From Bacteroidota bacterium (lineage in GTDB: Bacteria; Bacteroidota; Bacteroidia; JAHEXY01), in NCBI GenBank assembly GCA_023251875.1, contig JAHEXY010000004.1, forward strand, positions 194,359 through 229,283: a stretch of DNA of 34,925 nucleotides, written 5' to 3'. Numbering within the stretch: position 1 is the stretch's first letter; the number at the start of each line of letters is the position of its first letter. A program made the translations under genes and the position numbers. Positions 5,381 to 34,925 of this stretch are shown piece by piece. The notes under the pieces were generated by a model, which saw nothing but the letters and a program-made list of their open reading frames with translations, had not been told where the DNA came from and did no database searches.

Positions 5381-5980
5381 TTAATATCTTATTCCGATTC
5401 TAAATCTCATTTGTGGTAATACAAACAAAATTGGATAGACGGTTACGATCACGCCAATTCCGGTTTCAATAGTAAAGCGATTACCTACATTAAACATTTT
5501 ACCAACCATAATTTCCGGGCCAATTTCAAAACGCCAATAATCAAAACTGGTATAGTGTCCATAATAAGAATCCGAACCCAGATAATGCGCCAATACAGGC
5601 TTTAAAAATATTCCAACATAATAATTTTTGAAAGGTAAACTCAAGCTATAGTTTTTATTCATTAAATTAAGTTGTAAAGTGGAATAGTATTTTACGCCTA
5701 TTGAAATTGAATACCGATCACTCCATTCATCTGCTTCTGTAAGCTCAGATGTCCAATATTTGCAGTTAAAATCAAGGGCGATATTTCCTTTGAAACGTTT
5801 TTCATAACCTAAAGATGCACCAATGCTAAATAAAGGCAATAAATATCCACCTATTTTAATAATGTTCTGTTTTTGAGGAAAATTATGATGAAAAGCCAGA
5901 TTGATAGAATCATTTTGAGAATAAATAGTATTGCAAAAACCAACAAGAATTAATAAAAAGAAATAAGTATATTTTTTCAT
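5381..5980 (-). CDS. Predicted outer-membrane beta-barrel protein
   Basis: 199 aa, family not recognised. An N-terminal signal peptide (MKKYTYFFLLILVGFCNTIYSQ, cleavage after about residue 21) is followed by alternating aromatic/polar strands: IGGYLLPLFSIGASLGYEKRF, IALDFNCKYWTSEL, YSISIGVKYYSTL, NYYVGIFLKPVLAHYLG, YWRFEIGPEIMVGKMF, RFTIETGIGVIVTVYP. It ends QMRFRIGIRY; a C-terminal aromatic residue is the usual mark of barrel insertion. Its promoter is unusually clear (TTTG at 6027-6030, TATTTTTG at 5999-6006, minus strand) and carries three direct repeats immediately upstream. The LytTR regulator gene is next door, so it is the likely target of that regulator. The role in the envelope is unknown. 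Confidence 0.75.
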   Translation of the reverse strand: MKKYTYFFLLILVGFCNTIYSQNDSINLAFHHNFPQKQNIIKIGGYLLPLFSIGASLGYEKRFKGNIALDFNCKYWTSELTEADEWSDRYSISIGVKYYSTLQLNLMNKNYSLSLPFKNYYVGIFLKPVLAHYLGSDSYYGHYTSFDYWRFEIGPEIMVGKMFNVGNRFTIETGIGVIVTVYPILFVLPQMRFRIGIRY

Positions 5981-5998
5981 TAGTTAAAAGATTTGTTT

Positions 5999-6030
5999 CA
6001 AAAATATTATCCTATTGCTTGAGTATCAAA
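5999..6030 (-). promoter_or_regulatory. Promoter of the outer-membrane protein gene
   Basis: On the minus strand, TTTG (6030-6027), exactly 20 bp, then TATTTTTG (6006-5999). This is a full match to the Bacteroidota housekeeping promoter TTTG-N19/20-TAnnTTTG. The start codon is at 5980, so the leader is only about a dozen bases. Confidence 0.7.
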
Positions 6031-6031
6031 T

Positions 6032-6079
6032 ATTGGGGATAGAATGGCTTATTGGGGGATGATTTGTAAAATTGGAGAT
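6032..6079. promoter_or_regulatory. Three direct repeats, candidate LytTR binding sites
   Basis: ATTGGGGAT (6032-6040), ATTGGGGGAT (6051-6060) and ATTGGAGAT (6071-6079), read on the plus strand, start 19 and 20 bp apart, about two helical turns. A weaker ATTGCTTGA (6014-6022) continues the spacing into the promoter. The array abuts the -33 box of the outer-membrane gene and lies between that gene and the LytTR gene. LytTR proteins (AgrA, ComE, AlgR) bind paired direct repeats about two turns apart. Confidence 0.6.
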
Positions 6080-6105
6080 AAGATCAATTTTTGAGAGAGG
6101 GGATT

Positions 6106-7002
6106 TTACGCTAATTGAAGCAAATTTCTTACTTCCCTTATTTTACTTCTTGAAATGGGGACAAAGATTTCAGATTGATGAAAAGCAAGTTTATAAGCAG
6201 TGGAGTTTCCTTCAATGGATTTGATATGATGGGTATTTACTAAAAAAGCACGATGAGTTTGAATAATTTCCTTATAAGAAGAAAGCTCTTTTTGAACTGA
6301 GGTTAAGGTAGTCCTCATTTTTTCTATTTTTAAAATATTGTTTTGAAAAAATGTAACAGAAATATAATTACCAACTGATTCTATAAAAAGCAATTCATTT
6401 AATTGAAAAGAAATCGAGAATTCTCCCCTTTGAGCTTTTAATGTTATTAAATGAGAATGAGATTCAACATTTTGTAGCCCTTTACTTTTTTGTGGCTGTA
6501 ACAAAATAAGTTGAGCATTAATTTCTTTAAGATTTTCTAATTCTTGCTTTAAAATATAAGCATGTCCTAAAACAACATAAAGGGTAATAGGTATGGTACC
6601 AAGAGCCAATGTTGCCAAAATTCCTGTAACAACTCTATCGATAATAAGGGGATAGAATCCAAAGCTTACTTTAAAAATAAAAAATCCTATTCCCACAGAA
6701 AACAAATTCCATATAAGCCAAAGCCATTCCTTGGTTTTTGTCCAATAGTCTTCATTAAATAGTTTTGGGAATATATTGGGAATCAGAAATAAATTAAAGC
6801 TGCCAAGAGCAAATGTTATAATAGTATAAGCAATTAGCACTTCCATTTTTATATTGAATGAATATAACCTAAACTGAAAAGGTTGGAAAGTAGAATGGAA
6901 TAAAACAATAAATAAAGCGGATGCTCCAATAATTTTTAATTTAAACGCAGCACTATTTTTTAAGAGATAGGGAGCAAATAAAATTGAATTAAACCAATCC
7001 AT
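6106..7002 (-). CDS. Membrane-bound LytTR-family transcriptional regulator
   Basis: 298 aa from the ATG at 7002. The frame is open to 7035, but the ATG at 7002 follows the TAA of the lipoprotein gene by one base, so coupled translation is likely. The N-terminal half has four hydrophobic segments (around IIGASALFIVLFH, MEVLIAYTIITFALGSFNLFLIP, WLWLIWNLFSVGIGFFIF and TGILATLALGTIPITLYVVLG), then a short coiled coil (LKQELENLKEINAQLILL). The last 100 residues are a LytTR DNA-binding domain: LLFIESVGNYISVTF, MRTTLTSVQKEL, IIQTHRAFLVNTHHIKSIEGN, FVPISRSKIREVRNLL. There is no receiver domain, so the signal probably arrives through the membrane part, perhaps with the lipoprotein. The target is probably the outer-membrane gene downstream, preceded by three direct repeats. 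Confidence 0.88.
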   Translation of the reverse strand: MDWFNSILFAPYLLKNSAAFKLKIIGASALFIVLFHSTFQPFQFRLYSFNIKMEVLIAYTIITFALGSFNLFLIPNIFPKLFNEDYWTKTKEWLWLIWNLFSVGIGFFIFKVSFGFYPLIIDRVVTGILATLALGTIPITLYVVLGHAYILKQELENLKEINAQLILLQPQKSKGLQNVESHSHLITLKAQRGEFSISFQLNELLFIESVGNYISVTFFQNNILKIEKMRTTLTSVQKELSSYKEIIQTHRAFLVNTHHIKSIEGNSTAYKLAFHQSEIFVPISRSKIREVRNLLQLA

Positions 7003-7003
7003 T

Positions 7004-7540
7004 TTATTTCGAAGTATTTTTCTTCTCAAACTCATTAATCAATTCCTCACCCGATTTTCCAATATTTTGAAGAGAGGCTTTTGCATCAAGGTACAATTCG
7101 CTTTTAGGATATTTATCTATAAATTCTTGATATTTTTGCTTGGCTACATCAGGCTTATTTAATTCAGTTTCATATACAAAAGCTTCTAAAAATAGAGCAT
7201 GTGGGGCTTTAGGATGTTGCGGATATTTGGTGCAAAATTGTTCAAGATAATTAACTGATCTACTCCCTAATTTTAAACTCAATGCTATTTGTGCATTTCT
7301 AAACAAATAATCGGCAGTTAAAGAATCATCAGGGTTTTGATTCACATATTTTTCATAAGTGAGCATTAATTCTTGAGACACTTTTTGATTTACAGTTCCC
7401 ATACTGTCATGAAATAAAATCATTTCTAAGCTATCTATTTTTTTAGGAAGAGATTCGTTTTGAGCAATTGGTTTTGTTGGATTGTTACAAGAAGTAAATG
7501 CCAACATTAGAATATATGCTATAACTAAAAACTGTTTCAT
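7004..7540 (-). CDS. TPR-containing lipoprotein
   Basis: 178 aa. The signal peptide ends in a lipobox (LAFTSC, Cys18), so the protein is probably anchored to a membrane. The rest is alpha-helical with TPR-like units: YLFRNAQIALSLKLGSRSVNYLEQFCTKYPQHPKAPHALFLEAFVYE and VAKQKYQEFIDKYPKSELYLDAKASLQN. The fold recalls BamD/YbgF-type lipoproteins, but it is shorter than BamD (about 240 aa) and there is no Bam gene nearby. It is followed, with one intervening base, by the LytTR regulator, and preceded by def with a 60-bp gap holding short repeated TTGCTAAATTG words. A sensory partner for the LytTR protein is an attractive inference. Confidence 0.8.
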   Translation of the reverse strand: MKQFLVIAYILMLAFTSCNNPTKPIAQNESLPKKIDSLEMILFHDSMGTVNQKVSQELMLTYEKYVNQNPDDSLTADYLFRNAQIALSLKLGSRSVNYLEQFCTKYPQHPKAPHALFLEAFVYETELNKPDVAKQKYQEFIDKYPKSELYLDAKASLQNIGKSGEELINEFEKKNTSK

Positions 7541-32514: not shown

Positions 32515-34925
32515 ATGAAAAAGATTTCCTTTTTGTTATTATTTACGTTTTTAATTTCTGCGAAAATTTTTGGTCAAACTCTTACCCTTACTTTGCCTAA
32601 CGGAGGAGAAAATCTCGTAGGTGAAACTTGTACAAAATACAATATTACCTGGACAGCATCAGGTACTTCAAATTACTATGACATCTATTATTCAGTTGAT
32701 GGAGGTACAAATTGGATTTCAATTGCTAGTAATTATTATACTACAGCTTCATCATATAGTTGGTTAATTCCAAGTGTAACTTCAACAACTTGTTTAGTTA
32801 AGGTAAAAGATGCTCTTAGTGCTACAACTTATGATAATAGTAATGCAGTTTTTTCTATTACTAAAGGAGAAATTGTAGTAACAAGTCCTAACGGAAGTGA
32901 GAGTTGGTATTCGGCATTAAACTATCAAGCTCCGGCCAGTGCGTATTATAAATACCCCACGGTAACAGAAACGGATACCTTGTTTACAGGTACGTACTAT
33001 GCCGGCAATACTTATAGTTCAGGAACGGTATATACCCAAACCTATTATCCGGGAGTAACGGGTGATAAATTGGCGATCTATTTTAATAGTTTTTCAGCCA
33101 GTTCTAGTCTTAGTTCAAGCACGTATGGGTATTTAAAAATATATGATGGGCCTAGTACCGGTTCGAGTATCATTGGTACTTATTATTATGGTAACTATCC
33201 TACAAATTATATCAAATCAAGCCATAGTACAGGGGCTTTAACTTTTGTCTTTTATACCTATAGTTCCAGCTATTATTTTACATGGAACGGCACTTTTTAT
33301 ACTGTAAATGCCAGTAATGTACAGCCTATCACTTGGACAAGTTCAGGTACCAGTGGCATGTATGATGTGTATTATTCTAGTAACAGCGGTACAAGTTGGA
33401 CACAAGTAGCAGACAATACAACCGGCAATAGTTACAGCTGGATCCTGCCTTATGTAATAGCCAGCAGCAGTACTTACGAAGTAAAAGTAACCGATGCCAG
33501 CAATACCTGTATGACGGATGCGAGCAATGCTGTGTTTACGGTAAAACCACAAACAGCAGCTGTGTATGTAAACCGTCCTAATGGAGGAGAAACAATCAAA
33601 GGCGGCAGTTCCTATATGATAGAATGGGCCACCAAATACATCAGTTCTTACTATGTGAATATTTATTACTCTAGTGATAACGGTACTACTTGGAATACGG
33701 TAGCCTCTCAAGAAAGTAACGATGGTGAATACTATTGGAGTGTGCCGGATATAGATGCCAGCAATTGTTTGGTAAAAGTAGTAGATTACAGCAGTACGGC
33801 TAACTACGATATCAGCGATGCGGTATTTGCAATAAGTGGATCGCATATTACAGTTACCAGTCCTAACGGAGGTGAAAGCATTTATACTTGTACCAGTGAT
33901 ACCATCAAATGGACAGCTACAGGTACAATAGCCAGTTCCACGGTAAAAATTGATTACAGCACCAATGGAGGTACCAGCTGGACCAGCATTACCACAAGCG
34001 TATCTGCCAGCCAAGGCTATTACGTATGGAGCATGAGCAATTGGACCAGTTCTACCGTTTTAATTAAAATTACTTCTAACAGCAATACCAGTTTTTACGA
34101 TCAAAGCGATGCCAGCTTTACTGTAGCAAGCGCTAACAATATTGTAGTAACAAGTCCTAACGGAAGTGAGAGTTGGTATTCGGCATTAAACTATCAAGCT
34201 CCGGCCAGTGCGTATTATAAATACCCCACGGTAACAGAAACGGATACCTTGTTTACAGGTACGTACTATGCCGGCAATACTTATAGTTCAGGAACGGTAT
34301 ATACCCAAACCTATTATCCGGGAGTAACGGGTGATAAATTGGCGATCTATTTTAATAGTTTTTCAGCCAGTTCTAGTCTTAGTTCAAGCACGTATGGGTA
34401 TTTAAAAATATATGATGGGCCTAGTACCGGTTCGAGTATCATTGGTACTTATTATTATGGTAACTATCCTACAAATTATATCAAATCAAGCCATAGTACA
34501 GGGGCTTTAACTTTTGTCTTTTATACCTATAGTTCCAGCTATTATTTTACATGGAACGGCACTTTTTATACTGTAAATGCCAGTAATGTACAGCCTATCA
34601 CTTGGACAAGTTCAGGTACCAGTGGCATGTATGATGTGTATTATTCTAGTAACAGCGGTACAAGTTGGACACAAGTAGCAGACAATACAACCGGCAATAG
34701 TTACAGCTGGATCCTGCCTTATGTAATAGCCAGCAGCAGTACTTACGAAGTAAAAGTAACCGATGCCAGCAATACCTGTATGACGGATGCGAGCAATGCT
34801 GTGTTTACGGTAAAACCACAAACAGCAGCTGTGTATGTAAACCGTCCTAATGGAGGAGAAACAATCAAAGGCGGCAGTTCCTATATGATAGAATGGGCCA
34901 CCAAATACATCAGTTCTTACTATGT
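32515..34925 (+). CDS. Large secreted repeat protein: Ig-like (Kre9/KNH-like) modules with inserted CUB domain, 3' end outside window
   Basis: At least 803 residues. Signal peptide KKISFLLLFTFLISAKIFG (cleavage near residue 20). Then Ig-like modules of the pattern xxPNGGExx...ITWT...YSxxGGTxWxxIA...YxWxxP...CLVKVxD...SxAVFxI. Module 1 spans residues 22-118; module 2 spans 120-347 and is split by a CUB-like domain (about 147-265, core YLKIYDGPSTGSSIIGTYY and ALTFVFYTYSSSYYFTWNG); module 3 spans 349-442 and module 4 spans 444-540. At residue 543 module 2 starts again, identical in DNA to the window end. It is probably a cell-surface or secreted adhesive or carbohydrate-binding protein; any T9SS sorting domain would lie outside. 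Codons after about 32930 are richer in G/C than those of module 1. Confidence 0.85.
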   Translation, partial: MKKISFLLLFTFLISAKIFGQTLTLTLPNGGENLVGETCTKYNITWTASGTSNYYDIYYSVDGGTNWISIASNYYTTASSYSWLIPSVTSTTCLVKVKDALSATTYDNSNAVFSITKGEIVVTSPNGSESWYSALNYQAPASAYYKYPTVTETDTLFTGTYYAGNTYSSGTVYTQTYYPGVTGDKLAIYFNSFSASSSLSSSTYGYLKIYDGPSTGSSIIGTYYYGNYPTNYIKSSHSTGALTFVFYTYSSSYYFTWNGTFYTVNASNVQPITWTSSGTSGMYDVYYSSNSGTSWTQVADNTTGNSYSWILPYVIASSSTYEVKVTDASNTCMTDASNAVFTVKPQTAAVYVNRPNGGETIKGGSSYMIEWATKYISSYYVNIYYSSDNGTTWNTVASQESNDGEYYWSVPDIDASNCLVKVVDYSSTANYDISDAVFAISGSHITVTSPNGGESIYTCTSDTIKWTATGTIASSTVKIDYSTNGGTSWTSITTSVSASQGYYVWSMSNWTSSTVLIKITSNSNTSFYDQSDASFTVASANNIVVTSPNGSESWYSALNYQAPASAYYKYPTVTETDTLFTGTYYAGNTYSSGTVYTQTYYPGVTGDKLAIYFNSFSASSSLSSSTYGYLKIYDGPSTGSSIIGTYYYGNYPTNYIKSSHSTGALTFVFYTYSSSYYFTWNGTFYTVNASNVQPITWTSSGTSGMYDVYYSSNSGTSWTQVADNTTGNSYSWILPYVIASSSTYEVKVTDASNTCMTDASNAVFTVKPQTAAVYVNRPNGGETIKGGSSYMIEWATKYISSYY
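32872..33656 (+). repeat. Long direct repeat, first copy (period 1269 bp)
   Basis: 785 bp identical by line-by-line reading to 34141-34925. It covers module 2 with its CUB insert and the start of module 3. The full repeat unit is 32872-34140 (423 codons). Confidence 0.95.
34141..34925 (+). repeat. Long direct repeat, second copy, cut by the window end
   Basis: Identical to 32872-33656 over all 785 bases available, including third codon positions. The shift of 1269 bp keeps the reading frame. The number of further copies is not known. Confidence 0.95.

Follow-up and report, generated by a model that had tools for sequence, protein, structure and literature searches.

A kinase-less membrane LytTR regulator predicted to act on the adjacent promoter through direct repeats about 20 bp apart in a Bacteroidota genome

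Transmembrane transcription regulators (TTRs) are numerous in Bacteroidota (PMC10269533), and membrane LytTR regulators, such as CoxC, HigX and the LRS-like proteins of Bacteroides, are already known, as are triple repeats. CoxC of Afipia carboxidovorans is an MHYT-LytTR repressor with three direct repeats 18–21 bp apart (PMC11347149), and in Bacteroides, membrane LytTR genes are accompanied by direct repeats upstream of a TGTA-19-TATCTTTG promoter (Zou et al. 2018, PMC6193735). In the openly licensed literature, we found no description of the motif, downstream placement or fixed promoter register of the four-transmembrane (4-TM) LytTR family considered here.

The window analysed is a 34,925-bp stretch of DNA from a Bacteroidota bacterium, in which a membrane-anchored LytTR regulator gene (6106–7002, minus strand) encodes a 298-aa protein with four predicted N-terminal helices and a C-terminal LytTR domain (approximately 6118–6411). 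The LytTR domain (PF04397) was matched at residues 198–295 (E = 7.8e-12; 45.7 bits, with a curated cut-off of 22.6) and was the only Pfam match on the regulator; no receiver (REC), kinase or MHYT match was obtained. In the AlphaFold2 model, helices at residues 18–38, 49–77, 89–114 and 121–167 are followed by a LytTR beta fold; these four long N-terminal helices fall in a hydrophobic stretch, and a Foldseek search matched the LytTR part to the AgrA LytTR-DNA structure 4xqn (E = 5e-5) and to ComE 4cbv (E = 2e-6). The first-pass annotation had described a membrane-anchored LytTR protein without a receiver or kinase domain, and Pfam and the structural model agree on this point. With TM segments and a DNA-binding domain predicted in one protein and no kinase or receiver, the regulator would belong among the TTRs; having no REC domain, it is not a two-component response regulator. 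An LRS pairs a soluble LytTR regulator with a separate membrane inhibitor in one operon, preceded by direct repeats. The window locus departs from this type, given that the regulator has its own TM domain, that its neighbours encode a TPR lipoprotein and an outer-membrane-type protein, and that the repeats follow the regulator gene, with no other copy near the operon in a pair search. Its three direct repeats are spaced as in CoxC-like systems (19 and 20 bp, within 18–21 bp), but the MHYT domain is absent. The genome encodes 11 further LytTR genes.

On the minus strand, a 125-bp gap (5981–6105) separates the regulator gene from the presumed target gene (5381–5980), an arrangement that the first-pass annotation had read correctly. 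The target encodes an orphan 199-aa secreted or outer-membrane-type protein with a signal peptide, for which no Pfam or NCBIfam match exceeded the cut-off; among 395 class genomes, it gave one marginal match (E = 5.5e-4, with internal stops) and none that was convincing, and its structural model was strand-rich but of low confidence (pLDDT 39). The array in the gap is real: three imperfect copies of ATCYCCAAT, spaced by 19 and 20 bp, lie just upstream of a TTTG-N20-TATTTTTG promoter. Three copies of one word had been claimed at 6032, 6051 and 6071; their places and spacing held, but only 6032–6040 is an exact ATTGGGGAT, whereas 6051–6060 (ATTGGGGGAT, one additional G) and 6071–6079 (ATTGGAGAT, one substitution) are near copies. 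The proximal 9-mer stops one base short of the −33 box TTTG (6027–6030, read from the sequence), which is followed after 20 bp by a −7 box, TATTTTTG (5999–6006), of the Bacteroidota TAnnTTTG type. In minus-strand order the boxes occupy 6030–6027 and 6006–5999, and the earlier description of this promoter as perfect is fair for the −33/−7 type. A 14-mer at the −33 position, TTTGATACTCAAGC (6017–6030), recurs identically and in the same register in the downstream gap of one relative (L067), the rest of which has diverged. Rfam matched no RNA element in the gap, its sole match being a tRNA elsewhere.

A search of genome contigs with the LytTR protein found no relative, and the comparison was made at class level, among 395 Bacteroidia-class genomes in which the window genome is the sole member of its order. 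LytTR family matches (E = 1e-12 or better) were present in 56 of these genomes, our own included. The aligned relatives (alignment A1; E = 1e-36 to 1e-12) were nearly full length for the most part and mostly 22–30% identical, and both the membrane part (the ‘FLFLLLFQPFGL’ region) and the DNA-binding part were common to them, placing the window protein by homology of both parts in the Bacteroidia 4-TM LytTR family. In most of the 53 relatives examined, the regulator gene and the gene downstream of it shared a strand, and 90–160 bp usually separated them. From other membrane LytTR genes we assembled 45 usable downstream gaps from 24 families, excluding the window. Matrix-detected TTCRTCCC pairs 19–21 bp apart were found in 33 of the 45 gaps and 19 of the 24 families, whereas 100 shuffled gap sets averaged 0.7 such gaps and never exceeded 4; an array was present in only 1 of 36 other intergenic gaps at the same loci. 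This matrix was trained on the gaps that it summarizes, a circularity addressed by a motif-free test and a register test. In the former, base identity by lag peaked at 19–21 and 39–41 bp across the 45 gaps (the trivial lag of 1 aside), and these peaks were absent upstream of the regulator and within its coding DNA. In the latter, the −7 box having been left out of matrix training, 12 of the 27 ANNTTTG boxes in array gaps lay 37 bp, and 4 lay 38 bp, downstream of the point where the last copy begins.

The window follows the same register, with its last copy at gap position 62 and its −7 box at position 99, which is 37 bp. A matrix trained without the window recovered two of its copies, 20 bp apart and where expected: the middle operator-like copy ATCATCCCCCAA (6052–6063; 6.2 bits) and the proximal copy TCTATCCCCAAT (6032–6043; 5.5 bits), the latter starting 37 bp before the −7 box, as in relatives. 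The distal copy CTTATCTCCAAT (6071–6082; −3.0 bits) fits the family motif weakly, so the window has the family array in two copies with a weak third. The first-pass annotation had read the repeats as a directly repeated, operator-like array with a period of about two helical turns, immediately upstream of the promoter serving the following gene; this layout is conserved in relatives.

The genes behind the array vary. A DUF2306-like gene followed in 25 of the 45 gaps (Pfam), and the remaining targets encoded cytochrome c, an acyltransferase, a nitronate monooxygenase, DUF1761, DUF2141 and an unnamed secreted protein. Arrays occurred in 23 of the 25 DUF2306-type gaps and in 10 of the 20 others; since they accompany both DUF2306 and varied other targets, the operator follows the regulator and not the target. 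No DUF2306 gene was found in the window genome.

Searches for arrays elsewhere started from DNA alone. A strict triple-array search of 85,000 species genomes returned at least 118 places, of which at least 8 coincided with a membrane LytTR locus; among the matches listed, many were plain tandem repeats or Planctomycetes repeats, and one of those at LytTR loci, in a Saprospiraceae genome, displayed the window-like downstream layout. That layout is not universal: in several Bacteroidales, arrays lie upstream of the LytTR gene in the opposite orientation. Five such loci (L131, L141, L156, L170 and L217; Bacteroidales or similar) carry GGGACGAA arrays, orientation reversed, upstream of their own membrane LytTR gene, and at L205 the array comes after the LytTR gene, but it too is turned round, and a TATATTTG box stands behind it. 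The reversed upstream arrays suggest autoregulation at those loci and a repeat polarity that can flip. In Henriciella pelagia (Alphaproteobacteria; L177), a LytTR open reading frame called from its first ATG shares its 5′ portion with the same triple array; the true start may lie further in, with the array upstream of it. Planctomycetes metagenome-assembled genomes and Kuenenia (L117, L120, L124, L126, L128 and others) contain GGGACGAATCGG-type words about every 20 bp at loci with no LytTR gene of the family, possibly a separate repeat family. A strict pair pattern gave approximately 57 matches in 390 class genomes, with tandem repeats accounting for several and only a few lying at LytTR loci; a reversed-pattern control gave a few dozen. 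As the number was not clearly above the control, no wider regulon or distant sites are indicated. Within the window, a large secreted-protein gene (32515–34923) contains a near-identical internal repeat of about 1.27 kb, with identical words at 33069 and 34338.

On this sequence evidence, we propose, with a probability of roughly 0.78, that a kinase-less membrane LytTR one-component regulator acts on the adjacent promoter of 5381–5980 through direct repeats spaced by about 20 bp. In this single 298-aa protein, a four-helix membrane domain, to which the DNA-binding LytTR domain is joined, would sense an envelope or membrane signal; four TM helices and no evident periplasmic domain suggest that this signal arises in or at the membrane. 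LytTR domains would then bind two or three repeats side by side on one face of the DNA, a mode proposed because the array resembles the CoxC repeats and the LRS promoter repeats, and the bound domains would touch RNA polymerase and activate the 5381–5980 promoter. The proximal copy lies next to the −33 box and not over it, which favours activation, and the adjacent promoter is probably activated rather than repressed. The array, its spacing, its register relative to the promoter and the reappearance of all three in relatives are computational results, whereas binding by the window protein, the regulatory sign and the nature of the signal are inferred.

The same protein and sites might instead serve repression, with occupancy near the −33 box blocking RNA polymerase until a signal relieves it. 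CoxC, itself a membrane LytTR protein with three direct repeats 18–21 bp apart, represses (PMC11347149), and the proximal 9-mer of the window stops one base from the −33 box. However, the CoxC operator overlaps the −35 box, whereas the window copies stop upstream of the −33 box; the fixed offset of 37–38 bp to the −7 box in relatives resembles a polymerase contact geometry, and RcoM and the LRS regulators, with their upstream repeats, are activators. We consider repression unlikely, though it deserves more weight than any other alternative. A sensory role for the lipoprotein is the least credible. The first-pass annotation had postulated a three-part circuit in which the TPR lipoprotein encoded at 7004–7540 (minus strand; TPR_6, YfiO-like, with weak BamD/CpoB-like matches) would be co-transcribed, act as the sensor and signal to the LytTR protein. 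The coupling on which it drew is present as described, the lipoprotein stop TAA (7006–7004) being followed by an A and then by the ATG of the LytTR gene (7002–7000). Nevertheless, relatives of the lipoprotein occur in 269 of the 395 class genomes, against 56 for the LytTR family; at nine other lipoprotein loci, def adjoined in all nine and ruvX also in seven, with the LytTR gene at none, and no regulator locus examined in a relative had the lipoprotein beside it. The lipoprotein gene is probably an old operon neighbour from ruvX-def surroundings rather than a sensor, and that element of the earlier reading is not supported.

Two further alternatives detach the array from the adjoining regulator, and both appear highly improbable. 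If the repeats were functionless products of chance in an AT-rich gap, their imperfection would be unsurprising; loose single word copies in the window numbered 12 against 11.6 expected, which is chance level, and three copies without regular spacing arose in 184 of 1500 dinucleotide shuffles of the gap. Because single words stand at chance level, it is spacing and register that carry the signal. A regular triple (a 9-mer with two copies at edit distance ≤1, spaced by 17–23 bp) arose in only 2 of the 1500 shuffles; among 580 tiles of the window, two held such a triple, the array itself being one of them. Elsewhere in the 4.8-Mb genome, paired ATTGGRG words at the array spacing occurred just four times. 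When the −7 box was fixed and the upstream part shuffled, 30 of 20,000 shuffles equalled the window at the two positions expected from relatives, although the window copies are degenerate relative to the family consensus and about 2% of shuffles beat the chain score alone. The −33 14-mer common to L067 is likewise in register. Alternatively, the array could serve another regulator, the adjoining LytTR gene being incidental: direct repeats are also bound by other regulators, and the genome has 11 further LytTR genes. Against this, arrays stand behind the LytTR family in 33 of 45 gaps whatever the target, compared with 1 of 36 other gaps, and several matches of the array-only search turned out to be at membrane LytTR genes.

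A broader proposal, for and against which we judge the odds to be even, is that the regulator and its operator form a class-wide cassette. In this cassette, the 4-TM LytTR regulator would be co-inherited with a TTCRTCCC operator-promoter segment in the 37–38-bp register, single envelope or redox targets would be swapped behind it, DUF2306 being the commonest, and the operator would drift with the regulator in isolated lineages. With motif, spacing and register recurring across about 19 taxonomic families, the direct target of each regulator would become predictable from sequence alone. Such loci would also provide a clear case for studying how a protein anchored in the membrane reaches its promoter, and a first handle on the DUF2306 proteins.

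Among described systems, AgrA and ComE share the LytTR fold and direct-repeat sites upstream of the promoter, but they have a receiver domain and a kinase partner, absent for the window protein, and their canonical site comprises paired 9-bp repeats with 10–13 bp between. HigX of Caulobacter crescentus (PMC13384398) is similar in protein architecture, consisting of a four-helix membrane bundle without a periplasmic domain, a linker and a LytTR domain; its ChIP motif, however, is an inverted repeat bound genome-wide, whereas the repeats of the window are direct and in tandem, and nothing points to a regulon that extends past the neighbouring gene. The LRS-like systems of Bacteroides resemble the window locus in combining, within Bacteroidia, a LytTR protein with TM segments and direct repeats upstream of a −33/−7 promoter. 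They differ in having an NfeD-like/DUF2154 membrane partner encoded upstream, for which the window has no counterpart, and in that their 11-bp TCCGGTATTCA-type repeats, 22 bp apart, precede their own operon, for which autoregulation has been proposed, whereas the window repeats would serve the downstream gene. CoxC, like the window protein, unites a membrane domain with a LytTR domain, without a kinase, and has three repeats beside the promoter of the regulated gene. Unlike the window protein, CoxC carries a seven-TM MHYT CO sensor, and its operator overlaps the −35 box with the motif TTNNNGCN, whereas the motif of the window family is TTCRTCCC.
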